From NCBI RefSeq assembly GCF_002234675.1, contig NC_019859.2, forward strand, positions 759,740 through 823,739: 64,000 bases of DNA. Direction: 5' to 3'. The notes beneath the pieces are model-generated. The model had not been told where the DNA came from. It worked only from the letters and a program-made list of their open reading frames with translations, and searched no databases. Source of the stretch: Oryzias latipes. Lineage: Eukaryota; Chordata; Actinopteri; Beloniformes; Adrianichthyidae. This document shows positions 3,509-61,300 of the stretch, in pieces. A program made the position numbers and the translations under genes. Each line of letters begins with the position of its first letter. Position 1 is the first letter of the stretch.

Positions 3509-5680
3509 ATGGCTGCGGACCTGCTGTTCGGGAAGAAGCCGCCGTCCTCCACCGGAACCACCGCCGCCGTGCAGCGGTACCAGCAGCAGAACGTCACCAA
3601 CAACAACACGTCCGCCGCGCAGAGCTGCGGGAGCTGGCAGGGCCTGTACCCCACCATCCGCGAGAGGTGAGGGGGCGGGGCTAGAGCAGGGCGCCACAGG
3701 TAACCACGCCCACTCCAGAAAGACAAGGCAGCTGGAGGAGAGACGGGTTCACACCCAAAAAGTGAAGGCTACACCGGCCACGCGCGCGCACCCACACACC
3801 AATACACACACCAGCACAAAGAAATACACAAGTTCTCTGTGTGGAGGAGATGAGGAGGAGGAGATGAGGAGATGAGGAGGAGATGAGGAGGTGATGAGGA
3901 GGAGATGAGGAGGTGATGAGGAGGAGATGAGGAGGTGATGAGGAGGAGATGAGGAGGAGATGAGGAGGTGATGAGGAGGAGATGAGGAGGAGATGAGGAG
4001 GAGATGAGGAGGTGATGAGGAGGTGATGAGGAGATGAGGAGGAGATGAGGAGGTGATGAGGAGGTGATGAGGAGGAGATGAGGAGGAGATGAGGAGGAGA
4101 TGAGGAGGTGATGAGGAGATGAGGAGGAGATGAGGAGGTGATGAGGAGGAGATGAGGAGGTGATGAGGAGATGAGGAGGAGATGAGGAGATGATGAGGAG
4201 GAGGTGTTTGTGTTCAGGAGCCTCAGCTGTGATGCTTCTGTCTGCAGGAACTCCGTCATGTTCAACAACGAAATGATGGCCGATGTTCACTTTGTGGTCG
4301 GACCACCGGGCGGGACTCAGCGGGTTCCAGGACACAAGGTAACCCCCCCCCCCCAATGGTCTGCAGGTTCTGATGAAAACTGAGACGGGTCTGATGCTGA
4401 CGGTTGAGGATCTCCTGGTTCCCCGTGAGCTTCACCTCCTGTTTCTCCTCCTCGGCAGTACGTTCTGGCCGTCGGCAGCTCCGTGTTCCACGCCATGTTC
4501 TACGGAGAACTGGCCGAGGACCAGGAGGAGATCCGGATCCCTGACGTGGAGCCGCCGTCCTTCCTGGCCATGCTGAAGTAGGTTTGTGTGGCGATGACGT
4601 CACGGTAAGCTCCGCCCCTCAGCTGACGGCGGTTTTCGGCCCTGCAGGTACATCTACTGCGACGAGATCGACCTCTGTGCCGACACGGTTCTCGCCACCC
4701 TCTACGCTGCCAAGAAGTACATCGTGCCCCACCTGGCGCGCGCCTGCGTCAGCTTCCTGGAGACCAGCCTGAGCGCCAGGAACGCCTGCGTGCTGCTGTC
4801 GCAGAGCTGCCTGTTCGAGGAGCCCGACCTGACGCAGCGCTGCTGGGAGGTGATCGACGCGCAGGCCGAGCTGGCGCTGCGCTCCGAGGGCTTCTGCGAC
4901 ATCGACGCGCAGACGCTGGAGAGCATCCTGCTGCGCGAGACGCTCAACGCCAAGGAGATGGTGGTGTTCGAGGCGGCGCTGAACTGGGCCGAGGCCGAGT
5001 GCCAGCGGCGCGAGCTCCCGCCCACCATCGAGAACAAGCGGCTGGTTCTGGACAAGGCCATCTACCTGATCCGCATCCCCACCATGGCTCTGGAGGACTT
5101 CGCCAACGGGGCGGCGCAGTCCGGCGTGCTGACGCTCACCGAGACCAACGACATCTTCCTGTGGTACACGGCCTCCAACAAGCCGGAGCTGCTGTTCTGC
5201 TCCAAACCCCGCAAAGGCCTGGCGCCGCAGCGCTGCCACCGCTTCCAGTCCTGCGCCTACCGCAGCAACCAGTGGCGGTACCGCGGCCGCTGCGACAGCA
5301 TCCAGTTCGCCGTGGACAAGCGCATCTTCATCGCCGGCTTCGGCCTGTACGGCTCCAGCTGCGGCTCCGCCGAGTACAGCGCCAAGATCGAGCTGAAGCG
5401 GCAGGGCGTGGCCATGGCCCAGCGGGTCATCAAGTACTTCTCGGACGGCTCCAGCAGCACCTTCCCCGTCTGGTTCGACTACCCGGTCCAGATCGAGCCG
5501 GACACCTTCTACACGGCCAGCGTGGTTCTGGACGGAAACGAGCTGAGCTACTTCGGCCAGGAGGGCATGACGGAGGTGCAGTGCGGCAAGGTCACCTTCC
5601 AGTTCCAGTGCTCCTCGGACAGCACCAACGGCACCGGGGTGCAGGGGGGGCAAATCCCCGAGCTCATCTTCTATGCCTGA
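3509..5680 (+). CDS. btbd3: BTB/POZ domain-containing protein 3 (BTBD3-like)
   Basis: Coding exons are 3509-3666, 4248-4338, 4459-4577 and 4648-5680. All junctions are GT..AG and in phase, giving 466 residues. The N-terminus (MAADLLFGKKPPS, then an NNN-rich linker and GLYPTIRER) is BTBD3-like. A BTB/POZ domain follows (about 56-160, with MADVHFVVGPPGGTQ and HKYVLAVGSSVFHAMFYGE). Next come a BACK domain (about 170-275) and a PHR-type beta-sandwich (about 314-464, QRCHRFQSCAYRSNQWRYRG) ending GGQIPELIFYA. BTBD3 and BTBD6 are paralogues; ELAED, KYIYCDEIDL and WFDYPVQIEPDTFY fit BTBD3 better. Mammalian BTBD3 directs dendrite orientation toward active axons, and the family binds Cul3. The chosen ATG matches the short BTBD3 isoform; an upstream exon for a longer N-terminus was not found. 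The third position of codons is very GC-rich in exon 4. Confidence 0.93.
3844..4203 (+). repeat. Purine-only minisatellite in btbd3 intron 1
   Basis: About 360 bp of GATGAGGAG-based units (GAGGAGATGAGG and GAGGTGATGAGG alternating irregularly) fill most of the 581-bp intron 1. On the gene's sense strand the array is G- and A-rich with only T interruptions. It starts 177 bp downstream of the exon 1 donor and ends about 45 bp upstream of the exon 2 acceptor. The opposite strand reads as low-complexity ORFs of Ser/Pro/His/Leu, which are artefacts. Confidence 0.95.
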
Positions 5681-8728: not shown

Positions 8729-8745
8729 GGATCAGTAGGAAAATG

Positions 8746-9300
8746 AACAACATCCAATAATGATCAACATCCAATAATCAACATCCCATAATAATCATCA
8801 TCCAATAATGATCAACATCCCATAATAATAATCATCCCATAATAATCAACATCCCATAATAATAATCATCCAATAATGATCAACATCCCATAATAATCAT
8901 CCAATAATAATCAACATCCCATAATAATCATCCAATAATGATCAACATCCCATAATAATCATCCAATAATAATCAACATCCCATAATAATCATCCAATAA
9001 TAATCAACATCCCATAATAATCACCCAATAATAATCATCATCCAATAATGATCAACATCCCATAATAATCATCCAATAATAATCAACATCCCATAATAAT
9101 CATCCAATAATAATCAACATCCCATAATAATCACCCAATAATAATCATCATCCAATAATGATCAACATCCCATAATCATCATCCAATAATAATCAACATC
9201 CCATAATAATAATCATCCAATAATAATAATCACCCAATAATGATCATCATCCCATAATAATCATCCAATAATGAACAACATCCCATAATAATCATCATCA
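8746..9300. repeat. AT-rich minisatellite (AACATCCCATAATAATC units)
   Basis: About 555 bp of alternating AATAATCATCC, AATAATGATC and AACATCCCAT blocks directly abut the right end of Harbinger copy A. Unit length varies and the array has blocks duplicated at about 60 and 120 bp. Confidence 0.92.
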
Positions 9301-9798: not shown

Positions 9799-14779
<4,981 letters not shown>

Positions 14780-15646: not shown

Positions 15647-18500
15647 TACACACGTTTAAGTACACACATGGTTATGTACACACATGGTTACGTACACACC
15701 TGTTTACGTACACACGCTTACGTACACACGCTTACGTACACACACGTTTAAGTACACACATTTTTACGTACACACATGGTTACATACACACTTGTTTACG
15801 TACACACCTGTTTACGTACACACGCTTACGTACACACGTTTACGTACACACACGTTTACGTACACACACGTTTACTTACACACAAGTTTACGTACACACA
15901 AGTTGCGTACACACACTTTTACGTATACACAAGTTGCGTACACACACTTTTACGTACACACGCTTACGTACACACGTTTACGTACACACACGTTTACGTA
16001 CACGTTTACACACACACATTTACGTACACACTTTTACGTACAAACACGTTTACGTACACACACGTTAACGTACACACGTTTACGTACACACAGGTTTACG
16101 TACACACAAGTTGCGTACACACACTTTTACGTATACACGGTTACGTACACACACGTTTACGTACACACACGTTTACGTACACACAAGTTGCGTACACACA
16201 CTTACGTATACACAAGTTGCGTACACACATTTTTACGTACACACATGGTTACGTACACACACGATTACGTACACACAAGTTTACGTACACACAAGTTGCA
16301 TACACACACTTTTACGTACACACAAGTTGCGTACACACACTTTTACATACACACATGGTTACATACTCACACGGTTACGAACTCACATGGTTACGTACAC
16401 ACACGTTTACGTACACACACGTTTACGTACACACAAGTTGCGTACACACACTTTTACGTATACACAAGTTGCGTACACACATTTTTACGTGCACACATGG
16501 TTACGTACACACACGATTACGTACACACACGTTTACGTACACACAAGTTTACGTACACACAAGTTGCGTACACACACTTTTACGTACACACAAGTTGCGT
16601 ACACACACTTTTACGTACAAACACGTTTACGTACACACACGTTAACGTACACACATGTTTACGTACACACAGGTTTACGTACACACAAGTTGCGTACACA
16701 CACTTTTACGTATACACGGTTACGTACACACACGTTTACGTACACACACGTTTACGTACACACAAGTTGCGTACACACACTTTTACGTATACACAAGTTG
16801 CGTACACACATTTTTACGTACACACATGGTTACGTACACACACGATTACGTACACACAAGTTTACGTACACACAAGTTGCATACACACACTTTTACGTAC
16901 ACACAAGTTGCGTACACACACTTTTACATACACACATGGTTACATACTCACACGGTTACGAACTCACATGGTTACGTACACACACGTTTACGTACACACA
17001 CGTTTACGTACACACAAGTTGCGTACACACACTTTTACGTATACACAAGTTGCGTACACACATTTTTATGTGCACACATGGTTACGTACACACACGATTA
17101 CGTACACACACGTTTACGTACACACAAGTTTACGTACACACAAGTTGCGTACACACACTTTTACGTACACACAAGTTGCGTACACACACTTTTACGTACA
17201 AACACGTTTACGTACACACACGTTAACGTACACACATGTTTACGTACACACAGGTTTACGTACACACAAGTTGCGTACACACACTTTTACGTATACACGG
17301 TTACGTACACACACGTTTACGTACACACACGTTTACGTACACACAAGTTGCGTACACACACTTTTACGTATACACAAGTTGCGTACACACATTTTTACGT
17401 GCACACATGGTTACGTACACACACGATTACGTACACACACGTTTACGTACACACAAGTTTACGTACACACAAGTTGCGTACACACACTTTTACGTACACA
17501 CAAGTTGCGTACACACACTTTTACGTACAAACACGTTTACGTACACACACGTTAACGTACACACATGTTTACGTACACACAGGTTTACGTACACACAAGT
17601 TGCGTACACACACTTTTACGTATACACGGTTACGTACACACACGTTTACGTACACACACGTTTACGTACACACAAGTTGCGTACACACACTTTTACGTAT
17701 ACACAAGTTGCGTACACACATTTTTACGTACACACATGGTTACGTACACACACGATTACGTACACACAAGTTTACGTACACACAAGTTGCATACACACAC
17801 TTTTACGTACACACAAGTTGCGTACACACACTTTTACATACACACATGGTTACATACTCACACGGTTACGAACTCACATGGTTACGTACACACACGTTTA
17901 CGTACACACACGTTTACGTACACACAAGTTGCGTACACACACTTTTACGTATACACAAGTTGCGTACACACATTTTTACGTGCACACATGGTTACGTACA
18001 CACACGATTACGTACACACACGTTTACGTACACACAAGTTTACGTACACACAAGTTGCGTACACACACTTTTACGTACACACAAGTTGCGTACACACACT
18101 TTTACGTACAAACACGTTTACGTACACACACGTTAACGTACACACATGTTTACGTACACACAGGTTTACGTACACACAAGTTGCGTACACACACTTTTAC
18201 GTATACACGGTTACGTACACACACGTTTACGTACACACACGTTTACGTACACACAAGTTGCGTACACACACTTTTACGTATACACAAGTTGCGTACACAC
18301 ATTTTTACGTACACACATGGTTACGTACACACACGATTACGTACACACACGTTTACGTACACACAAGTTTACGTACACACAAGTTGCGTACACACACTTT
18401 TACGTACACACAAGTTGCGTACACACACTTTTACATACACACACGGTTACGTACTCACACGGTTACGAACTCACATGGTTACGTACACACATGTTCATAC
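15647..18500. repeat. 2.85-kb minisatellite of TTTACGTACACACA units with 581-bp higher-order repeats
   Basis: The basic unit is 10-13 bp, centred on TACGTACACACA with a variable spacer (GTT, AGTTG, TGGT, CTTTT). Larger blocks begin with the same motif series at 16074, 16655, 17236, 17565 and 18146, giving periods of 581, 581, 329 and 581 bp. One copy therefore has an internal deletion of 252 bp. On the plus strand all three frames are free of stops for hundreds of codons, giving Thr/Tyr/His/Val/Arg/Leu-rich frames that are not genes. Confidence 0.97.
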
Positions 18501-20668: not shown

Positions 20669-22196
20669 CATTGATATGAGAAAGTTTGGCCCCCTGATAA
20701 TTTTCCAGATTTTCCTTCATAAATCATTGGTTGTTTGGATCATCAATGTCAGTTAAATATATTATCTAGCAGATGAACACAGTGATTTTTGAGAAGTGAA
20801 GTGAAGTTTAAAGAAACTGTGGCCCCCCCAACAGAAACATGCCATAAATATTTAGTAGATCCTCCTTTTGCAGAAATGACAGCCTCCAATCTCTTCCTAT
20901 TGCTTCCAATCAGGGCCTGGATTCTGGTTGAAGGTCTTTTGGACCATTCCTCTTTGCAAACATCTCCAGTTCAGTCTGATTTGATGCTTCCCAGCACGGA
21001 CAAATCCCACCACAGATTTTCAATCATATTCATGTCTGGGGACTGAGATGGCCGTTCCAGAACATTGGACTTGTCCCTCTGCATGCAGGCCTTTGTAGAA
21101 TTAGAGCAGTGTTTAGGGTCATTGTCTTGTTGAAGGATCCAACTTCAACTTTGTCACTGATTCTTGAGCATTGTAAGAATCTGCTGATACTGACTGGAGT
21201 CCATGCCACCTTCAACTTTGACCAGATTTGCAGAACCTGCACTGGCCACACAGCCCCAAAGCATGATGGGACCAAATGTGACTGTGGGTAGGAAGTGTTT
21301 GTCTTGGAATGCTGTGTTCTTTGTTGGCCAAGCATAGCCTCCCTTGTTATGTCCATTTTAGTTTCATCAGTCCTCAGCGCCTCATCCCAGAATGAAGCTG
21401 GCTCATCCAAATGTGCTTCAGCAGACCTCAAGCGTCTTTGTTTGTGGCATATGAGCAGAAAAGGCTTCTTCCGCATTCCTCTTCCATCCAGCATCTCCTT
21501 GTGCAAAGTGTGCTGATTGGTTGAAGGATGCACAGTGACACCATCAGCAGCCAGATCACCTTGTAGGTCTTTGGAGCTGCTCTGTGGGTGGAGTCTGATG
21601 GTTCTCACCATCCTTCGCCTATCTGAGGTTTTTCTGGGCCGGCCACTCCGGGCCTTTGCTTGAACTGTGCCTGTGGTCTTCCATTTGTTCCTCACAGTGG
21701 AAATTGACAGCTGAAATGTCTTAGCAAGCTTTTTGGATCCTTCACCTAAACTGTGATGTTGAACAATCTTTGTTTTTCAGGTCCTCTGACAGCTGTTTGG
21801 AGGTTCCCATGTTGACATTCTACAGAGAAGATGAAAGAGGAGAAAAACTCGCTCTTGACCTCCTTAAACACTTCTTCTCATGATTGGCTTCACATGTGTA
21901 TGGAGGTCAAGGGTCAATGAGCTTGTAAAACAAATTTTGTGTTCCAATAATTATTGCTAAAGGTAGTCAAAGCAATAAAACAACAGGGGGGGCCACATTT
22001 ACCCACCTGCCTATTTTTGTTTAAGTAATTATTGCACAGTTTCTTTAAATCCGATAAACTTCACTTCACTTCTCAAATATCACTGTGTTCATCTGCTAGA
22101 CGATATATTTACCTGTAATTGATGATCCCAACAACCAATGATTTATGAAGAAATATGTGGAATTATCAGGGGGGCCCAAACTTTCTCCTACCACTG
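20669..22196 (-). mobile_element. Degenerate Tc1/mariner transposon with ~150-bp inverted repeats
   Basis: About 150 bp at the left end (GAGAAAGTTTGGCCCCCTG ... GAAGTGAAGTTTA) is repeated inverted at the right end (TAAACTTCACTTC ... CAAACTTTCTCCTACCACTG). A TA dinucleotide follows the right end (22197-22198); the left TA appears mutated. Size, long inverted repeats and the transposase relic on the minus strand identify a Tc1-type element. Divergence between the two ends suggests age. Confidence 0.88.
21030..21810 (-). pseudogene. Broken Tc1-type transposase
   Basis: The minus strand starts with MGTSKQLSEDLK at 21810. It continues through an HTH region with a frameshift (KWKTTGTVQAKARSGRPRK near 21690), then TVHPSTNQHTLHKE, and then the first catalytic Asp in TDETK. 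The second Asp (QDNDPKH) and the final DDE-type Glu (SQSPDMNMIENLW) are visible near 21040-21130 but in another frame. All parts of a DDE transposase are recognisable, but frameshifts make it inactive. Confidence 0.87.
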
Positions 22197-30800: not shown

Positions 30801-30827
30801 TAAAATAACTGACAGAATTTTGTCACA

Positions 30828-30898
<71 letters not shown>

Positions 30899-39800: not shown

Positions 39801-42800
39801 GAACCTGCAGAACGTTGGGTTCCTCCAGACAGTCTCAGGGTTCCTGAAGAACCATGCAGACATCACCTGGTTCCAAAGCTCCACCAGGCTAGAACTTCAC
39901 AAACACATGAAAGAACGAAGAGAAGCAAAGCCTGAACTCTGAAATGCTGGTGTGTGTGTGTGTGCGTCTGTGTGTGCACGTGTGTGTGTGTGTGTGTGTG
40001 TCTCCCCACAGCATCAACATCCTGAAGTACATCATTTACGGTCTGGCCGCCGGCTTCTTCGTGTTCGGCGTGCTGCTTCTGGTGGAGGGCTTCTTCACCA
40101 CCGGCGCCATCCGGGATCTGTACGGCGAGTTCAAGATCACCGCCTGCGGACGCTGCCTGACCGCATTCGTAAGCAAACACGTTCAGAGACAGACTTCCTG
40201 TCCGGCCGGCGTCTCGCAGGCGTTCGGTTCCTGAAGTTTCTGCTTTCAGACGCTCTTTGGTCTGTTCTGAAGTCTGAAGTTCGCAGGCTTCTGTCCTTCA
40301 CCAGCGGTTCCTGACTGAAACCCTTAGACCCTCAGGGTCCTGGACCCCCCTGCTGCCTCTCATCCAGGCTCCTCCTTGTGTCCACAGCTGATGTTCCTGG
40401 CCTACCTGTTCTTCCTGGTGTGGCTGGGCGTGACGGCCTTCACCAGCCTGCCGGTCTTCATGTACTTCAACGTTTGGTCCATGTGTCAGAACACCAGCTT
40501 GGTGGACAAAGCCAACCTCTGCCTGGACCTGCGTCAGTTCGGTACGTTCACACCTGCGTCTGTGGAGGTGCAGTACCGGTCTCCACCTGCAGGAGACCGA
40601 CGCCTTTTCCTGTCCTCTCCTTTCTTCAGACTCTGAGGTCACATGACAAAATGGATTGTTCTCACTAGGTTTTCTTTTCCGTACCATGAAGGCGCCACCG
40701 CCGTGCATCTCTATAAGCAGTGTTCCAATGACTGAGCTCAAATAGAGTTTTAGCTCCAGTGTTGACGTTCTTTCATGAACCGGAACTCTTCAACCGTTTA
40801 TGCAGTTTACCTAATTCCAGCCGATTCTGTCGCGGAGCAAAGCGGCTTTGTGCAAATATGCGACACTTTTGCAGACCGATGTGAAAAACCGCTTTTCTCG
40901 CCGTCACAATCAGCTGATTGACATTGGTGGGAAAAAGAGCTCCGGTACATCAAAGAGCGTCTGTCAATCAGGCGTCGCCGGAGACATCTCAGGTGTTAAA
41001 GACGAAGATTCAGGTCAAACATTTTTGTCTCCTGATGTACGTTTAGGCGGTAAAAAAATATAAATGAGGTTGAAAGATCGTAATCCTTAAACCGTACTTT
41101 CATATTTCTTTGGACTGATGTTCTGCAGGTTTTCCAGGAAGATCTCCAGTGAAACATTCCGACTTTTTCCGCCATTAATCTGCTCCTTCGTGTTTTTACG
41201 CAACGCAAAGTAAAACTCAGATCTGGCCGTGATCGAAGAATCGCGTCAAACTGAACGGAGATGATTGACAAGGTCTACAGCCAATCAGGAATCAGAGCAT
41301 GATGCACTGTTAAAATGTAGGGGGCGAGTTTTTGCCCTCCTCTGTAAACACTGTCGCCTTTCAGAGCCCCTTTGCTAGGGCCCGGGCCCCCGTGACCCGG
41401 AGCCTCTGTAGCAAAGCAGGTCAGACGTCAGAACATGATGTCGGTTCAAATCCAGACATGTGCGGCGCGTGCATTCTCCGCGTTTTTCTGATCCGTTATC
41501 GGTACCGTAATGTGTTTTTGGTTCCGGTCCGTCTGTCCAGATCTGTCCTGAAATGTCTCCGTCCGGTCCGATCGGGTCCGCCCCGGGTCGGTCCTGCTCT
41601 TGAGCCTCTTAAATGAACGCTGTTCCTTCTCAGGGGCGGTGACCATCTCTGAGGACAGGAAGCTGTGCACGGCGTCCGAGAGGTTTGTCAAGATGTGCGA
41701 ATCCAACGAGGTGAGTGGCGTGCACGTGCGCGTGCGTGAGGAAGGGGGCATCACAGTAACCGGCCTGTTTGTGTCCTGCAGCTTGACTTGACCTTCCACC
41801 TGTTTGTGTGCGCTCTGGCGGGGGCGGGGGCCGCAGTCATCGCCATGGTGAGAACCACAACGTTTTCCCAGCACTTGCAGGTTTTTCTCCAAAGCTCGGT
41901 GGCGCCCCCTGCAGGTTTCAGGGCTTTGAGGGGGGGCTTTTGGTTTTCCATAGAACTGCATCTCTGCATTCCTTGTTTGTTTCTGCTCAGACTTTTGGGG
42001 GGTGGAGTCCTCACAGAATACCCCCCCACACACACACATCTATGGAAGCATTCCCGGTGTTGACTTTGGTTTAGAATTATGTGACAGAAATGCTTCCATA
42101 CGCATCAACAAACTCCTGAACGCTGGTGGATCTGAATCTTCTTCAGAGCGAAGGACGTCGTTTTCATGATCGTTACTTTGCTCTGAAGTAAACGATCCCA
42201 AACATGACTCTTATTTTGAAAGATTGCAATGACAGCTTCCTACAGTTGGCAGCAGCAGAAACGACACTACTTTGAAGGAGCAGCTTCCTGTTTTCAGAGT
42301 CAAAGAAGAAACTGACGGCCTTCAAAGATCCAAAAATAAGAATTGGTGATCAAAGCCTGGAAAGGTCAAAGGTCATCATTGGAAGCAGAAGGAACTCCAT
42401 CAAGTTCCAGGAAAACAAAAATGAAGGTTCAACTAAAAGAAGTTAGAAATTCTGAGTTGAAACAAACCAGAGCCCCAGTTCTGATGGTTCTGATGGATCT
42501 GTTGGATCTGATGGATCTGTTGGATCTGATGGATCTGATGGATCTGATGGATCTGATGGATCTGTTGGATGTTGTTTCTAACAACTCTTTGATGTTTTCA
42601 AAAAACCCACAGATTTAAAAAAAAACAATTTAATGTTTTTAAAACATTAAAATGTTTTTTTAAACAACTTTGATGTTTTTTCAAACCACTTTAATGTTTA
42701 AAAAAACGTTGAGGTTTATTAAAACACTTTTATCTTTAAAAATAGTTTGATGTTTAAAAAAACAACCATTTTATTTTTTAATAAACTCTTTGATGTTTTG

Positions 42801-43442
42801 ATGCTGTTTCTTGGTTTCTAAACTTTGTAAATAGTTTTTCTTTGAAACACTTTGAGAAGCAGCTTCGTTGTTTGAAAAGTGCCACATGTGACTTTATCCA
42901 GCCTCTTTCAGGAAATAGTCTGAGCCCATCGGGTTCTGGGTCGATGCTGGTGACGCGTCTGACCTGAAATCCGTTTCTAAATGCTGATTATTATTATCAT
43001 TATTATACATTCAGACTTTTCTAATCGAGGAAACACAATCTTTTAAACGGAGAGGCGGTTCTGCTGGTCCTCCAGCCTTCTTCCATGAAGCTTCATCGGT
43101 CCAGATGGGCGGGAAATTGATTTGCTTCGGTTGAATTCCGTCTCTTTCTTCACCCAAAGCTGTTTTAGGAGGACGTGACGTCAGAGCCACATCTGTCGGT
43201 CTGTCATCCCATCAGGCCAGAAAACCTGGTCCAGGAGTGAAGATCTGACTCCTCATCCTCTCTGACCTTTGCCCTGGTCCTCCTCGCAGGTCCACTTCCT
43301 GATGGCTCTGGCCGCCAACTGGGGCTACCTGAAGGACGCCAGCCGGCTGCAGAAGTACGAGGACATCAAGTCCAAAGAGGAGCAGGAGCTGCATGACATC
43401 CACTCCACGCGCTCCAAAGAACGGCTGAACGCCTACACATAG
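24885..43442 (+). CDS. gpm6a: Neuronal membrane glycoprotein M6-a (GPM6A)
   Basis: Coding exons are 24885-24921, 39396-39588, 40012-40168, 40388-40541, 41634-41710, 41782-41847 and 43290-43442. All are in phase and give 278 residues, the human GPM6A length. The start [13 protein letters not shown] and the C-terminus [20 protein letters not shown] ... RLNAYT are specific to GPM6A rather than M6B or PLP1. Four membrane segments are seen at about 24-44, 83-110, 130-153 and 210-238. GCKECCERC (13-21) is the palmitoylated cysteine cluster. Large-loop cysteines Cys162, Cys174, Cys192 and Cys202 are all present, and N164 (NTS) is a glycosylation site. In mammals M6a sits in neuronal membranes and promotes filopodium and neurite formation. 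Exon 3 is 157 bp, as in the PLP family. The 14.5-kb intron 1 is about half tandem repeat, while the other introns are short. Confidence 0.97.
25537..27558. repeat. 2.0-kb (CCAT/CATCAT) minisatellite in gpm6a intron 1
   Basis: CCATCCATC and CATCATC blocks alternate for about 2 kb, with occasional CTATC, CATTC and CCTCC variants. A block starting near 25540 recurs near 26140 and again, partly, near 26640, so larger segments have been duplicated. Long His/Pro/Ser/Ile plus-strand frames are artefacts. Confidence 0.96.
27559..29175. other. gpm6a intron 1, unique sequence
   Basis: No exon-like frame or clear repeat is recognised. There is a short GGATCCTCACC triplication at about 28250-28280. Confidence 0.4.
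29176..29440 (+). mobile_element. tRNA-derived SINE-like repeat
   Basis: The segment starts GGGGCGGCACAGTG and has an A-box-like GTAGTGGTTAGC and a B-box-like GGTCCAAATCC about 45 bp further on. It then continues TGTGTGGAGTTCTCC ... GAACCC. This is the layout of a fish SINE with a tRNA-like head. It is diverged and not a functional tRNA. Confidence 0.6.
29751..30730. repeat. Exact decamer array, 98 units of CTGCTCCNNN, in gpm6a intron 1
   Basis: Each of 98 successive 10-bp units is CTGCTCC followed by TCA, TCT, TTC or CCC. The last unit ends TCG and one unit near 30631 reads CTACTCC. No insertion or deletion breaks the 10-bp register over 980 bp. The sense strand is pyrimidine except for one G per unit (plus the A of TCA). 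The Cys/Ser/Leu/Pro plus-strand frames and the Glu/Gln/Arg/Gly minus-strand frames are artefacts. Confidence 0.97.
30830..30903. repeat. (TA)n microsatellite
   Basis: About 65 bp of uninterrupted TA dinucleotides ends in TACATACATA, soon after the decamer array. Confidence 0.97.
31265..31796. repeat. Minisatellite of AGAGGAACATC / AGAGGAACCATC units
   Basis: Units of 11 bp and 12 bp (differing by one C) alternate irregularly for about 530 bp in gpm6a intron 1, with rare C-to-T changes (CATTAG). The sense strand is purine-rich. Plus-strand Glu/Arg/Asn/Ser frames are artefacts. Confidence 0.96.
31797..32640. other. gpm6a intron 1, unique sequence with GT tracts
   Basis: No exon-like frame is recognised. 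A GT-rich tract lies at 32190-32235. Confidence 0.4.
32648..32780 (+). repeat. Fish SINE-like tail with CA repeat
   Basis: TGGCGTAAATGGCG ... TATAGCGCTTGTC ... AAAGCGCTTTACAG is followed by CACACATTCACACACAC. This arrangement is very common in teleost genomes. The family is not assigned. Confidence 0.5.
32781..33936. repeat. Possible DNA-transposon-derived block in gpm6a intron 1
   Basis: Motifs such as GTTTACATGGACA, TCATGTAAAC and TTTACATGCAG recur in both orientations near both sides, with a GC-rich centre (33010-33240). This resembles fish DNA-element remnants, but no exact ends were found. No supported gene is present. Confidence 0.3.
33937..34145. mobile_element. Two tRNA-like SINE heads in head-to-head (palindromic) arrangement
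   Basis: The left arm (33937-34020) has GGTTCGATTCC, a perfect B box, and GCAGTGATAGG as a possible A box. The right arm (about 34060-34145) is its imperfect reverse complement (GGAAATCAAACCTGC ... CGACCGCCCTACCGCTGC). About 40 bp separate the arms. The pair could fold into a hairpin of about 85 bp per arm in DNA or in gpm6a pre-mRNA. Confidence 0.75.
34146..35012. other. gpm6a intron 1, unique sequence
   Basis: No exon-like frame or repeat ends are recognised. Confidence 0.4.
35013..37930. repeat. 2.9-kb minisatellite of 19-bp CGATACAAACGGAACGTAA units
   Basis: From 35013 to about 35985 the array is a nearly regular 19-bp repeat with three CpG per unit. From about 36000 to 37930 units are degenerate (GATGATACAAAC, ACATGACG, AACAACACAAGCGGAAC), and a long stretch is duplicated at an offset of about 894 bp (for example 36304 and 37198). 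It lies in gpm6a intron 1. Minus-strand Arg/Tyr/Val/Phe/Cys frames are artefacts. Confidence 0.96.
37931..38984. other. gpm6a intron 1, unique sequence
   Basis: The region is mixed, with a CpG-richer part at about 38110-38420. No exon-like frame is recognised. Confidence 0.4.
38985..39090. repeat. Short G-rich tandem repeat (GGGGAGGGGTCGTTCAGGC)
   Basis: Five imperfect 19-bp units lie about 300 bp upstream of gpm6a exon 2. GGGG and GGGAGGGG runs on the sense strand could form a quadruplex. Confidence 0.85.
42484..42572. repeat. TGGATCTGA tandem repeat in gpm6a intron 6
   Basis: GATGGATCTG and TTGGATCTG units are repeated about nine times. A stretch with repeated AATGTTTT/AAAAAA blocks follows to about 42790. 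Confidence 0.88.
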
Positions 43443-47745: not shown

Positions 47746-47900
47746 CTATGTTTTCCACGCTAACTGTCTCTGTTTTGCAGATGCAGCGGTGTTGCTTTTC
47801 TTCTGGAATAATATGTGCTCATATTCACTGTAACTCTGCAGCAGCACGTCAAGTTCAGATGGAGAAAAATACGCAGACCTCTTTTTTCCACAGTTGCCAT
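47746..47900 (-). pseudogene. Harbinger Myb/SANT-like protein, N-terminal fragment
   Basis: On the minus strand the frame reads KKRSAYFSPSELDVLLQSY, then EYEHILFQKKSNTAASAKQR. This is the beginning of the Myb/SANT-like DNA-binding protein that accompanies Harbinger transposase. The start is frameshifted relative to a nearby ATG, and the rest of the gene is missing. Confidence 0.75.
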
Positions 47901-48200
47901 GGTGACTCGTGATATCTGCGCTCCATTGATAATGGCTTCTTATAGTCGCGGTGCTCACGCTCACCTCCGAATCAGTCCACTCAGAGTTGATTGACCTAAC
48001 TCGGATCAGCTTCTCTGAAACAGAAAACTCAGAGTTGTTAATCTCCCGATTGACCAACTCGGAGTTCAAGTTCAACCTCAGAGTTGGTTGAACCTCCTTT
48101 CTGAAACAGGCCCCAGGTCCAGGTAACCAGCAGCAGATGGGGCGGGGTTTCTGAAAGACCAGCAGGAGGCCTCATCAATTTGCCGGGTTTTAGTCAGTTT

Positions 48201-49373: not shown

Positions 49374-52300
49374 TCAAATGATGCCCAGGTTTTCGTAGAT
49401 GACGTCATCCGGCGCTTCCTCGCCTCTGGTCAGACGAGTGGGGGGAGGGGCGGCACTGGGCCGGGCCTCGCTCTCGGGGGACGGTCCTCTTGGCGGCGCT
49501 GGTTTGCAGACTTTGGCATAGAGGTGGGCAAACGGGTCGGGTGTGCTTTCAGTCCCGTCACGGTCTGGCTCCGCCCCCGCCGTGGGCTCGGCGTAGACGG
49601 GTTCCTCTGGTTTCTCTTTGTTCGGGTCGCCGCTCTGCTGGTTCCGATGGGTGCTGACCCGGTCCAGTACCTCAGAGTAAACGGAATCGTGGTCGTCTGT
49701 CTGTGGGGGGGGACTTTCGGCGGCCCCCGGGGGTTTCAGAGGAAGGACGCTGGTGGGGTCGATGTACAGAGCTTTGGATGGGAGGAGCCTCATGATGGGC
49801 GGGGCACATTCAGCTGGATCAGCATAAATCCCATCTGACTCGTCGACTGGGACCTTCCTGGAGGGGGGGTTCTGTGTGGGCAGCAGTGGGAGGGGCATAA
49901 GCGTTATGGGAGCAGGAGCGGCGTCCGGCTGACCCCCCCGGTCTTCCTGAGCGTGGGGGCCGTCCTCCAAGGACGGGGACTTCCTGTCCTGGATCTTCAG
50001 CTTGGCTTCCAGAGCTGCAGCCATGTTGGGTGTTTTGGGGTGGGGGGAGCGGGGCTGCAGGGGGGCCTCCTGGGTCAGGGGGGCAGAGGGGGGGGCCCTC
50101 TGTTTGATGCTGCTCTGAATCAGAGAGAAGATCTTTTCAGCCTGAGAGCTTTCAAAGTTGAAGATTCCCGGACCAGAACCGCAGCGCCGACCCGCTTCGA
50201 TGGTCAGGACCGACTGGGGGGGGGGACATGACAGTGGTGAGGTCTGTCAAAAACAGAATCTGCATGGGGGGGTCAGTCAGGTACCTGATGGCTCCCATAT
50301 CTCCTCAGCTGCTCGTACGGCCATTCTCCAACCAGCTTCTTCTTCTGCGCTTCTCTGAGCAGCAGCGAGGCTCCGCCCACCTCCAGCCAATAGGAGCCCT
50401 CCAGGCCACAGCGAGTCGCAGCCTCCGTCTTCTGCACCGCCACCCAGAACTGCCGGGCTAGATGGGGGAGGAGAACACCAGCGTGACCCCAACATGTCTG
50501 CTGCCTTTGACCTCCAGGGTTCTTTTGTGACCTCAGCCATTTGATTGACAGCCATGACTCAGCAAACTCCAACAGCAGCAGAGGTGTTTGAATCAAACTT
50601 TATTGATCTCAGGTGGAAGACAAGACAACAGGTTCTACTCAGTTCCCCTGAGTTGTCCAGATAAAAACTCAGATCTTGATTCCCTCCTTGAACAGAGGAC
50701 GTTTTTAGATCCATGGTTAGTCCGTCACATATTTTCTGAAGTTCTCCATGGCTGTAAGCCCCGCCCCCTTTATGTCAGAAAGCGTGAATAAGGAACCAAA
50801 CCTGAGTGAGATGAAAACCCAGATAGAAGGTCCTACCTTCACCTGCAGAGGCGTAGATCTGGTTCTCCTCCAGGTGAGCGTGAACATTTCCTGAATTGTT
50901 TCCTGTCTGAGACGCATCAGAGCAGGAAGTGAGCGGGAGGAAGTGGAACCACAGAGTGGGAAGATTGATTTTTGACCTTGAAGCTGCTGAGACACAGCTT
51001 GTCCACCCAGTCCAAACAGTCGTCTTTGAGAGCAGCAAACACCAGCGTTCGGTCCTGGCTCTCCACGCAGAAAGCAGACATGTTCTCCTGCGAGCAGGGC
51101 GGAGCTTAGCACAGATCTTTGAGCAGGTCGCCAGCAGGGCGGACACTCACCATGGGACAGGCCTCTGCGTTTGGGGGGAGTCTGAGGACGCTGATCAGCT
51201 CCGACAGTCGCACCACCTTTACCTTCCTGTCCAGGTGAGGGTGGTGCCTCCTGATTCCACTACCAAGATCACCTGCTGCCCCGCCCCCTGGAGAGCAAGG
51301 AAACAGCAGGTCAAAGGTCAGTGAGCTAAGTGGCTGCAGATCTTCACACCTGAATCTCATGTGAGTGCGGGTAAACAGGTGAGGGGGGGGGTGTTCCCAC
51401 TTAGAAGCTCCGCCCATAGCCCCCGTCAAGCACAGCGTGCAACGTCCTCTGCTCTGTATGATTACTGAAGGGATGCATCCCTATGTTCATGCTGGAGTTC
51501 AAAGACGTTCTCTGCAGAACCATCAGAACGTCATCTGCTTTGTCACTGTTTGCAGACGCCACCACCATGTCTGTCTTGAAAGAAGCTGTAAGGAAACAGC
51601 TCCCACAGCAGCTCCCACAGCTCCCACAGCAGCTCCCACAGCTCCCACAGCAGCTCTCCCACAGCTCCCACAGCAGCTCCCACAGCTCCCACAGCAGCTC
51701 CCACAGCTCCCACAGCAGCTCCCACAGCTCCCACAGCAGCTCCCACAGCTCCCACAGCAGCTCTCCCACAGCTCCCACAGCAGCTCCCACAGCTCCCACA
51801 GCAGCTCCCACAGCAGCTCCCATAGCTCCCACAGCAGCTCCCACAGCAGCTCCCACAGCAGCTCCCACAGCTCCCACAGCAGCTCTCCCACAGCTCCCAC
51901 AGCAGCTCTCCCACAGCAGCTCTCCCACAGCAGCTCCCACAGCTCCCACAGCAGCTCCCACAGCAGCTCCCATAGCTCCCACAGCAGTTCCCACAGCAGC
52001 TCCCACAGCAGCTCCCACAGCTCCCACAGCAGCTCCCACAGCAGCTCCCATAGCTCCCACAGCAGCTCCCACAGCTCCCACAGCAGCTCCCACAGCAGCT
52101 CCCATAGCTCCCACAGCAGCTCCCACAGCTCCCACAGCAGCTCCCACAGCAGCTCCCACAGCAGCTCCCACAGCAGCTCCCACAGCAGCTCCCACAGCTC
52201 CCACAGCAGCTCCCACAGCAGCTCCCATAGCTCCCACAGCTCCCACAGCTCCCACAGCAGCTCCCACAGCAGCTCCCATAGCTCCCACAGCAGCTCCCAC

Positions 52301-55300
52301 AGCTCCCACAGCAGCTCCCACAGCAGCTCCCACAGCTCCCACAGCAGCTCTCCCACAGCTCCCACAGCAGCTCCCACAGCTCCCACAGCAGCTCCCATAG
52401 CAGCTCCCATAGCTCCCACAGCAGCTCCCACAGCAGCTCCCACAGCAGCTCCCACAGCTCCCACAGCAGCTCTCCCACAGCTCCCACAGCAGCTCTCCCA
52501 CAGCAACTCTCCCACAGCAGCTCCCACAGCTCCCACAGCAGCTCCCACAGCAGCTCCCATAGCTCCCACAGCAGTTCCCACAGCAGCTCCCACAGCAGCT
52601 CCCACAGCAGCTCCCACAGCTCCCACAGCAGCTCCCACAGCAGCTCCCATAGCTCCCACAGCAGCTCCCACAGCTCCCACAGCAGCTCTCCCACAGCTCC
52701 CACAGCAGCTCTCCCACAGCAACTCTCCCACAGCAGCTCCCACAGCTCCCACAGCAGCTCCCACAGCAGCTCCCACAGCTCCCACAGCAGCTCCCACAGC
52801 AGCTCCCACAGCAGCTCCCATAGCTCCCACAGCAGTTCCCACAGCAGCTCCCATAGCTCCCACAGCAGTTCCCACAGCAGCTCCCACAGCAGCTCCCACA
52901 GCTCCCACAGCAGCTCCCACAGCAGCTCCCATAGCTCCCACAGCAGCTCCCACAGCTCCCACAGCAGCTCCCACAGCAGCTCCCATAGCTCCCACAGCAG
53001 CTCCCACAGCTCCCACAGCAGCTCCCACAGCAGCTCCCACAGCAGCTCCCATAGCTCCCACAGCAGCTCCCACAGCTCCCACAGCAGCTCCCACAGCAGC
53101 TCCCACAGCAGCTCCCATAGCTCCCACAGCAGTTCCCACAGCAGCTCCCACAGCAGCTCCCATAGCTCCCACAGCAGTTCCCACAGCAGCTCCCACAGCA
53201 GCTCCCACAGCAGCTCCCACAGCAGCTCTCCCACAGCTCCCACAGCAGTTCCCACAGCTCCCACAGCAGCTCCCATAGCTCCCACAGCAGTTCCCACAGC
53301 AGCTCCCACAGCAGTTCCCACAGCAGCTCCCACAGCAGCTCTCCCACCTCTCCCACAGCTCCCACAGCAGCTCCCATAGCTCCCACAGCAGCTCCCACAT
53401 CATCTCCAACAGCAGCTCTCCCACAGCTCCCACAGCAGCTCTCCCACAGCTCACACAGCAGCTCCCACAGCAGCTCCCACAGCAGCTCCCACAGCAGTTC
53501 CCACAGCTCCCACAGCAGCTCCCATAGCTCCCACAGCAGCTCCCACAGCAGCTCCCACAGCTCCCACAGCAGTTCCCACAGCTCCCACAGCAGCTCCCAT
53601 AGCTCCCACAGCAGCTCCCACAGCAGTTCCCACAGCTCCTACAGCAGCTCCCACAGCAGTTCCCACAGCTCCCACAGCAGCTCCCACAGCTCCCACAGCA
53701 GCTCCCATAGCTCCCACAGCAGTTCCCACAGCAGCTCCCACAGCAGCTCCCACAGCAGCTCTCCCACAGCTCCCACAGCAGTTCCCACAGCTCCCACAGC
53801 AGCTCCCATAGCTCCCACAGCAGTTCCCACAGCAGCTCCCACAGCAGTTCCCACAGCAGCTCCCACAGCAGTTCCCACAGCAGCTCCCACAGCAGCTCTC
53901 CCACCTCTCCCACAGCTCCCACAGCAGCTCCCATAGCTCCCACAGCAGCTCCCACATCATCTCCAACAGCAGCTCTCCCACAGCTCACACAGCAGCTCCC
54001 ACAGCAGCTCCCACAGCAGCTCCCACAGCAGCTCTCCCACAGCTCCCACAGCAGTTCCCACAGCTCCCACAGCAGCTCCCATAGCTCCCACAGCAGCTCC
54101 CACAGCAGTTCCCACAGCTCCTACAGCAGCTCCCACAGCAGTTCCCACAGCTCCCACAGCAGCTCCCACAGCTCCCACAGCAGCTCCCATAGCTCCCACA
54201 GCAGTTCCCACAGCAGCTCCCACAGCAGTTCCCACAGCAGCTCCCACAGCAGCTCTCCCACCTCTCCCACAGCTCCCACAGCAGCTCCCATAGCTCCCAC
54301 AGCAGCTCCCACATCATCTCCCACAGCAGCTCTCCCACAGCTCCCACAGCAGCTCTCCCACAGCTCCTACAGCAGCTCCCACAGCAGCTCCCACAGCAGC
54401 TCTCCCACAGCTCCCACAGCAGCTCCCACAGCAGCTCCCACAGCAGCTCCCACAGCAGCTCTCCCACAGCTCCCACAGCAGTTCCCACAGCTCCCACAGC
54501 AGCTCCCATAGCTCCCACAGCAGCTCCCACAGCAGTTCCCACAGCTCCTACAGCAGCTCCCACAGCAGTTCCCACAGCAGCTCCCTGCTCTTCCTGGAGG
54601 ATGTCTCCTCTGGTTCAGGCTTCCTCTCATTGATCTTGAACAGAATGTTGTTCCTCAGTTTGTCCACCAGAGGTCAGTGTTTAGCCTCTTTCAGCAGCTG
54701 CTCTCCAAGGGCCTCATTTATAAACGTTGCGTACGCACAAAAGAAGGCGTACGCCACTCTCTACGCAATAGTTGAGATTTATAAAAAGCAAACTTGAGGG
54801 GAAAATGTGCGGTCCTTCAAGCTCTGACCCAGGCGTACGCACAAAAACGGGTGAAATGAGAAACGGCGACACCGTCGGCAGATGGAAGAAACACGTGAAA
54901 GTGAAAATGACAATACTGCCTCTCAGAAATAACATGAAGACTTCACAAAACAAGTCTGACAATTAACAGCTACACCAACACCCGTTTGATCGATCAGCAG
55001 TGAAACAAACAAAAAAATCAAACGAAAATTACAACAGAAATTCAAATGAACACTTATTTGCAAAAAGAAAAGTGAAATATGTTCTGCAATATTGGCATGT
55101 TGTGCAATTCATCCTCATGAATAATATAGTTAACAGAACGAAAAAATGTACAAAACTGATATTCTCGTCAGTGTGTCCGTCTGGCGGAGCAGATATAGGT
55201 GCAATCAGACAGATGGATAGATAGAGAGAGATGTATTAATTGTCCACTGGGGAAAGTTGTTTTCATAGTAAAACATTTCTTCATAAGCTACAGAATTATG

Positions 55301-58300
55301 GTATTCATGCATATGCCTTTAGTTTGTTTTATTTTTGATAAAACAATGTATGGCGTATGTCTCAACCATTCAGAAAGCAACAAGAAATTACATTTGCTGA
55401 TCAATTTCCCATTTTCACGTGGATTATTACCGACATCTGTAGCTTGTCAGATGTAATTAAATGGATGGAAATAAAATGCCCCATCACAATGCGTAATGAC
55501 GCACAATGGCTGATCTGGCGCTCTTAGAAGATGTGGCAAATGGAAGAATTCGGAGTGAACGCATCTTTAGACAGCAAGAAGACTTGCTGGCAAACGAGGA
55601 CGAGTGGCTTATGAGCCGGTTCCCACTTCCTCCAGCCGTCCTGTTGGACCTCTGTGGGCTTTTGGGGGGTGTCACCCGGTGCATCTGGCGCGTCGGTGTC
55701 CCCCTCCGCCTCAGTCACCACTCGTCTTAAAAGGGATTCCCCAATTATTGCCGCCAGTCTCTCATCAGGAGGGGTCAGCTCCGGTGTCCCCCCCCCACAC
55801 ACACACCCGTGGCAGACACGGGTGTGTGTGTGTGTGTGTGGGGGGGGGGGTTCAGCGCTAGACGTTTTCTTTGCCTTGACTTTTCTTTTTTATTTCCTTC
55901 TTTCTTTTTTATTTCCTTCTTTTTTATTTCGGCCACGGTCCGAGGTTGTGAGGCTGCAGCATTTACAGCGTCTGCCGCCGTCTGCCACTCACGTGCCTTT
56001 TTGGCATACACTGTGCCCTCCAAACAACATTATTCTCCTCTTTTCCACCTCGCCAACGATAACTTCTACTTCACATTTCTTTTTCTCCTGGAGAAACTTG
56101 GATCTGTATCAGAGAGAAGAACCGGAACCGGAGCAGAGAACCTTCAGCTTTCTGTCAGACTGAAGCTCCAGGAAGTCTCGAAGACCTCGGAGTGTTTTGG
56201 TTGGTTTGGATGCAGAGCTACAGTCTGATGGTTGGAGCAGCAGCACCAACCAGCAGGGGGCAGCAGTGGGTGCAGCATCCTTCTGCTCTGCGAGGGGGGG
56301 CTCCTCTCAGCTCAACAGTTTCTCATTGATTCTTTTGCTCTTATGAATAATTTTACCCCCCCCCCCCACAAAAAAAAGGAAAGCTTCATGTCACTTCCTG
56401 CATGTTCCAGTGAAGCGAGCGCGCTCATGGTGCACGTGAGTGGGAATGGGGGAGGTGCCAGTGCTTACATAACCCAGTGTTTCTGCTCAGGAGTTGGTCC
56501 TAATACCCCCCCCCCCCCCAAAACACACTGTAGACACCTGTGCTGCTCTTCCATGATTCTCCATGACACAACATGATTCTCCAATCACCCCCCCGCCCGT
56601 CTGTGATGCTCAGCAGAAAAACATGGAGACCTAAAAGCTGCTTTAAATTAGTGATTCTCTCGTGAACATCATTCGTCCATCCGGGTTTGGAAAAACATCC
56701 TCAAAGGTTTGTTGGTTCCTCTCAACACATGAAACCCTCTGACCCTCAAGAGTTTCCATTCCAGCGATGAAGGAACCAAAGGACACTCCTGTGAGTGTCA
56801 ATCTGAACGGGAAATTTAAAACATGTGTTGGGAAAAAAAACCTTCAAATAGATGTGAAGAACCGGGAGGCTTAACAGGCTCCACCCACTTTTAATTGAAG
56901 CTTCTCATTGGTCAGTTTGTAATATCCTAAAAAAAAGGTTATCTAGAAGATGTTTAAAAAAGAATCAGATCAAGAATGTTTATTCTGACCAATAGAAGGA
57001 CTGTTTATTTCTATGGGATTTTACTTCCTGTTTGGAACGTCAGGGGGGCGGGGTCCCTCAGTCCAGGTCCTAGATTCAGTCAAAGGGTTGGACTCACATG
57101 ATGCTGAGGTGGAGGTGAAACCATCCACCTCTCTGAAAGTCTTATTCATGAGGGAAAGCAGGAACGATGCTTCAGAAAAATACTTCACTCTGCTCGTTTC
57201 AGTCCTTCAGTGCTTTAGCACTTCAGTGATTCAATGATTCAATGATTCAATGATTCAATGATTCAGTTATTCAGTGATTCAACGATTCAGTGATTCAGTG
57301 ATTCAGTGATTCAATGATTCAATGATTCAGTGATTCAGTGATTCAACGATTCAGTGATTCAGTGATTCAGTGATTCAATGATTCAATGATTCAGTGATTC
57401 AGTGATTCAACGATTCAGTGATTCAGTGATTCAGTGATTCAATGATTCAATGATTCAGTGATTCAGTGATTCAATGATTCAATGATTCAGTGATTCAGTG
57501 ATTCAACGATTCAGTGATTCAGTGATTCAGTGATTCAATGATTCAATGATTCAGTGATTCAGTGATTCAACGATTCAGTGATTCAGTGATTCAGTGATTC
57601 AGTGATTCAACGATTCAGTGATTCAATGATTCAATGATTCAATGATTCAGTGATTCAGTGATTCAGTGATTCAATGATTCAGTGATTCAGTGATTCAGTG
57701 ATTCAGTGATTCAGTGATTCAATGATTCAGTGATTCAGTGATTCAGCGATTCAACGATTCAGCGATTCAATGATTCAGTGCTTTAGCACTTCAGCGATTC
57801 AGTTATTCAGTGATTCAACGATTCAGTGATTCAACGATTCAGTGATTCAGTGATTCAGTGATTCAATGATTCAATGATTCAGTGATTCAGTGATTCAGTG
57901 ATTCAATGATTCAATGATTCAGTGATTCAGTGATTCAGTGATTCAACGATTCAGCGATTCAATGATTCAGTGATTCAGTGATTCAGCGATTCAACGATTC
58001 AGCGATTCAATGATTCAGTGCTTTAGCACTTCAGCGATTCAGTTATTCAGTGATTCAACGATTCAGTGATTCAACGATTCACCGATTCAGTGATTCAGTG
58101 ATTCAGTGATTCAGTGATTCAGTGATTCAATGATTCAGTGATTCAGTGATTCAGCGATTCAACGATTCAGCGATTCAATGATTCAGTGCTTTAGCACTTC
58201 AGCGATTCAGTGATTCAGTGATTCAGTGATTCAGTGATTCAACGATTCAGTGATTCAGTGATTCAGTGATTCAATGATTCAATGATTCAGTGATTCAGTG

Positions 58301-61300
58301 ATTCAGTGATTCAATGATTCAATGATTCAGTGATTCAGTGATTCAGTGATTCAGTGATTCAATGATTCAGTGATTCAGTGATTCAGTGATTCAGTGATTC
58401 AGTGATTCAGTGATTCAGCGATTCAACGATTCAGCGATTCAATGATTCAGTGATTCAGTGATTCAGTGATTCAGTGATTCAACGATTCAGTGATTCAGTG
58501 ATTCAGTGATTCAATTATTCAGTGATTCAGTGATTCAGTGATTCAGTGATTCAATGATTCAGTGATTCAGTGATTCAGTGATTCAGTGATTCAGTGATTC
58601 AATGATTCAGTGATTCAGTGATTCAGTGCTTTAGCACTTCAGCGATTCAGTGATTCAGTGATTCAGTGATTCAGTGATTCAATGATTCAGTGATTCAGTG
58701 ATTCAGTGATTCAATGATTCAGTGATTCAGTGATTCAGCGATTCAACGATTCAGCGATTCAATGATTCAGTGCTTTAGCACTTCAGCGATTCAGTTATTC
58801 AATGATTCAATGATTCAGTGATTCAGTGATTCAGTGATTCAGTGATTCAATGATTCAGTGATTCAGTGATTCAGTGATTCAATGATTCAGTGATTCAGTG
58901 ATTCAGCGATTCAACGATTCAGCGATTCAATGATTCAGTGCTTTAGCTCTCCTCCTTAACAAGCAGCTTCCTTTCTGTCGCTCCTCTATCAGGAACCTTC
59001 CAGTTGTCTGTCCGTCCACAGAACCGTCTTTGGTTTCGCCCGCTCACCTGCCATATCCTGGATCTCCAGTCGGCCCACTCCACTGCTGCTGGGGGGGAAC
59101 AGGGACAACAACACCGGCTTCCATTTCTGAGAGGAGAGAGAGGAGAAGATCAGAGCTGGTTGGTGACGTTCCTCAACATAAAACCCTCAAGAAAAATTTT
59201 GCAGTTTTAAAAATAACAATTTAAAAACAAACAAACTGCATTTTACATTGGTTTGCAATTCACAATGCAAAACTAAATAAAGCCACGAGCGGCGTTGGAT
59301 GGCCCAAAGGCGCTACTTGCCCTCCCCGCCAGCCTCTACGCACCACCCAAACCTATTGGCTGAGATGTCACTACACACATCTAACTCACTCATCTCTTTC
59401 TGTAAGACTAATAAGCTGCATGTGGCTAAATTTACCAGCATAGCGATCAGCTTTATCAACTCACTCAGGAAAACACGGTGCTGAAGAGTCTCACATTGGT
59501 AAGAGCTACATGTGATAAGTTGAGAGAAAAATTTTCAAAATGGCGGCTTTTCTGTTGATTTTATCTCCATAGCAACTATTTCATGTTTTGGTCACCTGGG
59601 GATAACAAATAGAACGACATCAGTTTCAGGCGAATCGGAAAAAGTAAATTTTTTGATTTCCTTAGCAATGGAAGTTTTTTGCTAACCACGCCCACATTCC
59701 TTATTTGTCCATATCCAGTATACTTAAACATATTCAGCCATGGATGCATGCATTCAGTTTTCACAATATTCCATTGAAAAATAAATGAGTTATAAGATCG
59801 CGCCACATTTGTGAACTCGCCTTCCAGCCAATTCAAAATCTAGAACTTTGGATTGCAAAATTTTTTCCACTGTACCCTGCCATTGATGCCCGAAAAGTCA
59901 CGACAAGAACAATTAAAATCCCAATGAGGAGTTTTCGTTTGTATCTGGTACTAATGGCTCTTTTTGCAGAAGGTTTTTGGTTAGCCCCGCCCACAATCTT
60001 TACTTCGTATGTTACATTGTTTTGACCCGTGTGGGTCAGGGAACCGCATGTTTACTCTTTACAACGTTTTTTTTAAACTCCATTCGTGTTTTTCGGCCCA
60101 TTGATTTCTTTTACGTTATCCCTCGCTGTGATGTCATCGTCACAGATGGGGCGTCGTTCCCTTTGCCGTTAATTCATTTTTGCCGGGTCCTCGGTGTGAG
60201 AAAATTTGGGGGACTTTTCGTGCATGGCGGGGGTCAAATCTTCGCTCAAAGACGCAGAAATTTTTCCAACTGTGAAAACAATCTGGTCCCTGCAGTCAGT
60301 GATGCTAAAAATGACATTTCAATAAATCAACCTTTGAAATTCATTGTAAAGTAACTTAAATCTATTGCATTGTAATCTGCTGTTTGAACCCCCCCTCCCA
60401 TGTCATGCATTTACATTTACAGCACGCCACGCTTTATTCCACCCAAAGCTCAAACTGAAATGCCGTCTGTCACACTCGCATCAGGGCGGGGCCATCACCT
60501 GTCTATAGTTAGTAAATCCCGCCTCCACTTCCTTTGGCTGACCAATTAAAATACCAAAAACAATCAACAAACCAATGGCGGTTAGACTGCGGTCTCCTGT
60601 AATGAATTTGCTTCTGTGTTTGTGACCACGGCTGAACTTCTTCCTGTTTTCCTATGAAGGGTTAAACTTTGAGAGAAACATGTGAAAATGTTCATGTCTG
60701 TGTGAGAAAAGCGTAGAAAGTGTGAAGTGAGGACTTTACCCGCCTAAAACATCTGGAAGAATTCTAAAAAATAAAGATGACGTCAATAACTGAACCCATG
60801 ATGGATGAAGGATGGATGCGTGTCACTCCTCCTGTTTTCATTCCAGGCCAGAAGGCGGGCTTTGTGTCCACAGGGGGCGTGGCCTCTCCCTCATGAGTGT
60901 GAATGCAGCCCATGCCAAAGAGTCACACATTAACCCCTCCCCCCCCAACACACACCTGAAACTGCTCTCCACAACCGTCCCACTCAGGTAAATATTAGTC
61001 ATGTCCTCTGTGCATCAGGATAGGCCACACCCACTTCTTCAAAACAAAAGAGCCTCGTGTCATTGTTGGTGAATCTTTGAAAGACCAAAAGTTAGCTGCA
61101 GTTCTGTGATTTGGATCAGCTCCAGCCTGACGCTTCGTCTGAGCGCGTGCAGGAATGCGTGCTGCGGTAACGCCGCTGTGTTTCAACTTGTTCCTCCAGA
61201 ACTCTGGAGCCTCCTGAGCGGCAAACAGAAGTCCTCACCTGCAGAGCAAACGCCGACTTCCTCACCTGAGAAGTCAGACTTTGGTGTTCAGAGGCTTCAT

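Follow-up and report, generated by a model that had tools for sequence, protein, structure and literature searches.

Minisatellite arrays in a 64-kb window of medaka chromosome 1 and the gathering of their relatives near chromosome ends opposite the centromere

A 64,000-base stretch of the medaka (Oryzias latipes) genome, C1:759,740-823,739, here called the window, carries nine minisatellite arrays. Relatives of these arrays lie mostly near chromosome ends and there chiefly on the side away from the centromere, as judged from centromere sides given in a published figure legend; GC content is raised at the ends, and most of the arrays contain repeats of multi-unit blocks. The window starts 0.76 Mb in from the contig end. 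We consider it probable that it is a piece of a terminal, centromere-distal zone (~0-1.5 Mb) in which arrays are kept turning over by concentrated meiotic breaks and crossovers.

All nine of the long arrays reported in a preliminary description of this DNA, put there at about 15 kb of the 64 kb, were recovered by Tandem Repeats Finder (TRF); together they span 14,909 bp and account for 23.3% of the window. Each is a head-to-tail array of hundreds of base pairs to kilobases, as expected of minisatellites (units of ~7-100 bp), with the array at 25537 readable as a unit of 4 or 11 bp. In window coordinates and without assigned strand, they are an 11-bp unit GGAGGAGATGA at 3843-4203 (361 bp, plus strand without C), a 17/31-bp unit at 8748-9299 (552 bp, poor in G), a 16-bp unit ACACACGTTTACGTAC at 15648-18495 (2.85 kb), a CATC or CATCCATCCAT array with a 4/11-bp unit at 25537-27559 (2.0 kb), a 10-bp unit CTGCTCCTCC at 29751-30729 (979 bp), a 12/23-bp unit GAGGAACCATCA at 31265-31795 (531 bp), a 19-bp unit ATACAAACGGAACGTAACG at 35022-37928 (2.9 kb), a 12-bp unit CAGCTCCCACAG at 51597-54585 (2.99 kb) and an 8-bp unit TTCAGTGA at 57222-58940 (1.7 kb). 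The nine differ in unit length, unit sequence and base composition (GC 0.28-0.64, with 64% reached by the 10- and 12-bp units). Chance is ruled out by base composition, since the array at 25537 is virtually without G across 2 kb.

Relatives were sought across the whole genome (734,051,031 bases in 25 contigs, 24 of them large) for six of the nine arrays, with those at 3843, 8748 and 25537 outside the set; the 8-bp array was represented by window positions 57300-58800, or 1,501 of its 1,719 bases. The search scores the best candidates only and skips very common words, so the counts of relatives are lower bounds. Five of the six arrays have relatives elsewhere, at 61 places in total when neighbouring matches are merged by hand and a C1 place at 0.96 Mb is counted in two families. 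Forty-six of these places are less than 2 Mb from a contig end, versus 7.98 expected. The 10-bp family, the largest found, has 25 loci; 23 of them fall inside the 2-Mb limit, where they occupy 18 of the 48 ends. All nine relative loci of the 12/23-bp family lie less than 1.5 Mb from an end, and 11 of the 17 in the 16-bp family less than 2 Mb. Interior places were reportable by these searches, since places 6-12.5 Mb from an end were also listed. The relatives are more frequent near chromosome ends than in the interior, as in the human subtelomeric zone of variable number tandem repeats (VNTRs); random sampling, described below, shows this more weakly. A single unit on many ends, as in telomere-associated satellites, describes some arrays only: the 10-bp family has this spread, and no relative of the 19-bp array (35022) was found in the whole-genome search.

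Sides were assigned from the paper on the long-read assemblies of three inbred medaka strains (PMC5705604), where the legend of Fig. 2a gives chromosomes 7, 11, 22, 9, 12, 13, 18, 8, 1 and 19 as inverted to put the centromere left. On the basis of that legend the native centromere is on the right in these ten chromosomes and on the left in the others. The assignment assumes contigs oriented as published, and chromosomes 21 (two arrays) and 24 (none) were set aside. Ends with relatives within 2 Mb comprise 20 centromere-far and 3 centromere-near ends (2L, 8R and 9R; two-sided P = 0.0005), in addition to the unassigned 21L, 21R and 24L. The side rule was noticed on four families; in the fifth (12/23-bp), searched later, all seven assignable ends are centromere-far (P = 0.016). 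Titles and abstract beginnings listed from the open-licence literature contained nothing on an enrichment of medaka minisatellites at centromere-opposite ends. This bias is possibly the new point here, the arrays themselves being ordinary minisatellites in a subtelomeric zone. A pericentromeric placement of the window was rejected, published orientation being assumed: the legend implies a chromosome 1 centromere in the other half, and the single array of at least 200 bp within the first 10 kb of C1 has an 11-bp unit.

Array density was compared along C1 and between chromosomes. Among twenty 10-kb stretches of C1, arrays of at least 200 bp (any unit length) were present in 12 of 16 at 0-1.51 Mb versus none of four at 1.6-1.91 Mb. 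The term "local hotspot" of the preliminary description does not hold, as 22 of 24 chromosomes have relative places less than 2 Mb from an end and the first 1.51 Mb of C1 is array-rich too; its suggestion of a subtelomeric position is borne out by the window's distance from the contig end, the C1 stretches and the terminal relatives. Coverage by arrays of at least 100 bp was also compared with 20 sites ~0.8 Mb from the ends of other chromosomes and 30 interior sites, a small sample. For units of at least 5 bp it falls from 20.5% in the window to 14.0% in the other C1 stretches at 0-1.51 Mb, 7.07% at other ends and 1.77% in the interior. Nearly half of the 14.0% is a single 28-bp array filling the entire 10-kb stretch C1:600,001-610,000, and the interior 1.77% is due to a single TTG-type array, for which TRF gives a long-period reading as well. 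On its own, the random sampling is suggestive, not conclusive. Among the 30 interior samples, a ~1.6-kb TTG/TTTG repeat at C1:27,700,001-27,702,000 is by far the longest array, and the only other array of at least 100 bp is a 106-bp TA run. One near-end site holds a 184-bp ATT microsatellite.

Several results weigh against a terminal, centromere-distal zone. The excess of far over near ends weakens with wider limits, to 20 versus 4 at 3 Mb (P = 0.0015) and 20 versus 6 at 5 Mb (P = 0.009); these P values assume independence of the places, and the idea of comparing far with near ends came after the first lists. Two families do not follow the pattern closely: of the six relative loci of the 8-bp family (57222), only two lie less than 2 Mb from an end and five less than 5 Mb, and in the 12-bp family (51597) only one of four lies inside the 2-Mb limit. 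When all unit lengths are counted, coverage is 23.7% in the window, 14.3% in other C1 stretches, 7.68% at other ends and 5.20% in the interior, and ends and interior are not clearly different. Arrays of units ≥5 bp were found at two of nine far-end, none of 10 near-end, one of one unassigned-end (chromosome 24) and one of 30 interior samples, the interior one being the long-period reading of a TTG array. The ten 1-kb samples from right ends, of which six are far ends, had none.

Terminal enrichment, and the sharing of families by non-homologous ends, would also be expected if telomere proximity itself (through late replication, subtelomeric chromatin or end-to-end exchange) rather than meiotic recombination accumulated arrays, and during early prophase ~30% of zebrafish telomeres are described as being associated with other ends (PMC6336226). 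Centromere-near ends are also ends, yet they make up only 3 of the 23 assigned ends at 2 Mb, although the force of this argument is lessened by a possibly poor assembly of short arms. In addition, the window lies 0.76 Mb inside, and no TTAGGG x5 match was at that C1 end among the 100 of 232 matches listed. We regard telomere proximity as an unlikely explanation, if the strongest of the competing ones. The same 100 listed matches include some that are not at contig ends, at C2:6.34 Mb, C7:4.59 Mb, C9:5.02 Mb and C4:0.49 Mb; these are possible interstitial telomere repeats.

GC content is higher at the end samples than in the interior (0.454 versus 0.378). Split by side, it is higher at far ends (0.466, n = 9) than at near ends (0.416, n = 10; P = 0.037, or 0.045 with arrays excised), and near ends versus interior (0.382, n = 30) gave P = 0.09. 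Recombination is plausibly high in the zone of the window; GC is an indirect sign of it only. The GC difference between ends and interior, together with the length of gpm6a intron 1, is compatible with neutral replication slippage in high-GC regions or long introns, with ends being simply GC-rich and gene-rich. However, GC does not select arrays, because array GC spans 28% to 64%, and the internal structure of seven of the nine arrays, described next, is not that of single-unit slippage. Neutral slippage therefore seems a distinctly improbable account.

The longest exact internal repeat of each array was compared with 100 shuffles of its unit order, with units cut at chosen anchors. In seven of nine arrays it exceeded all 100 shuffles, with blocks of 127-680 bp at lags of 110-932 bp. 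Within the 16-bp array (15648) a 680-bp block recurs perfectly at lag 910, and the array at 8748 has a block repeat at lag 110. In the short arrays at 3843 and 31265, block repeats were not above the unit-order shuffles. Break repair or unequal exchange suits these data better than single-unit slippage because many-unit blocks appear to have been copied at once. The slippage-prone replication named in the preliminary description is accordingly less favoured in its single-unit form for the seven arrays and compatible with the other two. Long perfect internal repeats such as the 680-bp block could also mislead an assembler into false tandem expansion of a long-read assembly. Against such an artefact, Hd-rR SMRT (single-molecule real-time) subreads are given an average of 6.5 kb (PMC5705604), exceeding every array (≤3.0 kb); units are heterogeneous, and the 19-bp array, homogeneous in its 5' part (to ~35975), is more decayed in its 3' part. 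We consider an assembly artefact hardly credible.

The preliminary description had called the arrays unrelated and independently born. For every pair among 27 arrays (the nine of the window and 18 sampled elsewhere), shared 12-mers amount to at most 5%, and duplication of one array was rejected on this basis and on the lack of a relative for the 19-bp array. "Unrelated" can be kept at most within the window, as five of the six searched arrays have relatives elsewhere in the genome. Even there a distant kinship of the arrays at 29751 and 51597 is possible, because both match a 3-kb array on the opposite strand at C1:959,453-962,490, ~150-170 kb from the window's arrays (79-81% for the 10-bp array and 71% for the 12-bp CAGCTCCCACAG array). 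Independent birth fits the 19-bp array, for which no relative was found, and fits poorly with the 10-bp, 12/23-bp and 16-bp arrays, whose relatives lie at many other chromosome ends.

Other properties of the arrays were evaluated as possible causes. G-run quartets occur in bulk only in the array at 51597-54585 (61 on the minus strand), one among the 27 arrays, and G-quadruplex formation was rejected as a cause. Transcription-linked strand asymmetry was likewise rejected; array GC skews are of differing sign with no evident tie to gene strand by inspection. CpG observed/expected is 2.1 in the 15648-18495 array and 2.5 in the 35022-37928 array versus 0.65 outside arrays, and these two are possibly unmethylated or recently amplified. 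A hairpin variant AGTGCTTTAGCACT recurs in the 8-bp array (window 57209-58782), irregularly spaced at five internal positions and present once at the left edge. Neither the Rfam nor the tRNA scan gave a match in the window.

The concentration of minisatellite-type repeats near chromosome ends resembles that of human subtelomeric VNTRs, whose variants are reported as 7.1-fold enriched within 5 Mb of ends, with faulty meiotic recombination suggested by the authors (Linthorst et al., 2020; PMC7608644). The human excess is described as strongest for units >15 bp with GC >60%, whereas medaka units are mostly 8-19 bp with GC of 28-64%; the human signature is not seen here, the two arrays at 64% GC having 10- and 12-bp units. 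Unlike the human zone as described there, the medaka relatives are mostly within 2 Mb of an end and favour the end opposite the centromere. The core of human hypervariable minisatellites, GGGCAGGANG (Jeffreys 1985, as listed in PMC2408603), is approached only by the 10-bp array at 29751, whose family is the largest found: it contains 35 sites within one mismatch of GGGCAGGARG, of 52 in the whole window, and the other eight arrays contain none at that limit. Terminal male crossover zones as described for stickleback (PMC5982825) and salmonids (PMC5555479) have the same geometry, at ends opposite the centromere, with GC raised in stickleback; those zones are crossover maps, while the medaka case is known from sequence traces alone. 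The short tandem repeat expansion of codfishes (PMC5894186) is likewise a case of a teleost genome dense in tandem repeats, although the cod and haddock repeats are given as genome-wide and mostly dinucleotide and those of medaka are regional and mostly of minisatellite unit length.

Gene evidence in the window consists of exon pieces. Amid the arrays, btbd3-like, gpm6a-like, dok3-like PTB and thiolase exons were found in open frames with domain or protein matches. A btbd3-like open exon at 4598-5680 (plus strand) encodes the end of BTB, BACK and PHR, with its stop at 5680; the array at 3843 lies upstream of this exon and that at 8748 downstream of the stop. The gpm6a-like gene (24885-43439, plus strand) is represented by seven exon matches at 24885, 39395, 40013, 40367, 41633, 41779 and 43284, with two more weak matches (E 0.88 and 0.98) excluded. 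Exon 1 at 24885 is a weak match (E = 0.03), and with exon 2 at 39395 it bounds an intron of ~14.5 kb that holds the four arrays at 25537, 29751, 31265 and 35022. Dok3-like PTB (IRS-type) exons were identified at 49377-50599 (minus strand) from domain matches in open frames. The arrays at 51597 and 57222 lie upstream of them, before a candidate PH-like segment at ~59.0 kb recognised by eye only, and are probably inside dok3 introns. Of the six arrays earlier placed in introns of btbd3, gpm6a and dok3, four can be assigned to gpm6a and probably two to dok3, and the array at 8748 lies past the btbd3 stop. The window also contains a Tc1-type transposase piece at 21033-21776 and a Myb/SANT-like open frame at 47749-48171, both on the minus strand.

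Six of nine arrays being surely or probably intronic in gpm6a and dok3, they might act as selected regulatory or pairing elements; the human genes richest in VNTRs are reported as brain-expressed (PMC7608644), and two arrays have the high CpG ratios given above. The arrays have no common units, however, and their relatives track chromosome position, which makes a selected function very unlikely. Such a function is not needed for arrays that are mostly in introns or gene flanks.

For a terminal zone of array turnover, the following mechanism may be proposed. Meiotic double-strand breaks and crossovers would concentrate in the terminal zone, as in males of other fishes: in stickleback, male crossovers are described as clustering at long-arm ends, where GC rises (PMC5982825), and in zebrafish breaks are reported to form near telomeres (PMC8033029, PMC6336226). 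Medaka male crossovers would similarly cluster at the ends opposite the centromere, and break repair, by synthesis-dependent annealing or unequal exchange, would expand the arrays. The presence of the same families at many ends could stem from exchange between ends brought together in the meiotic bouquet, or else from a favoured sequence that gave rise to arrays repeatedly.

The reason why minisatellites gather near chromosome ends has long been discussed, often on the basis of human data, where telomere proximity and recombination coincide. In medaka the off-centre centromeres make the two easier to tell apart, since a chromosome then has a centromere-near and a centromere-far end, and the 20 far versus 3 near ends point to recombination over end proximity. 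If this is right, scanning genomes for repeats could indicate the male crossover zones of fishes for which there is no linkage map. More tentatively, and with some doubt on our part, the long minisatellites of medaka may map male meiosis, being born, turned over by break repair and partly exchanged between non-homologues mainly in the terminal 1.5-2 Mb opposite the centromere. If so, the array landscape would show where males recombine without any cross.

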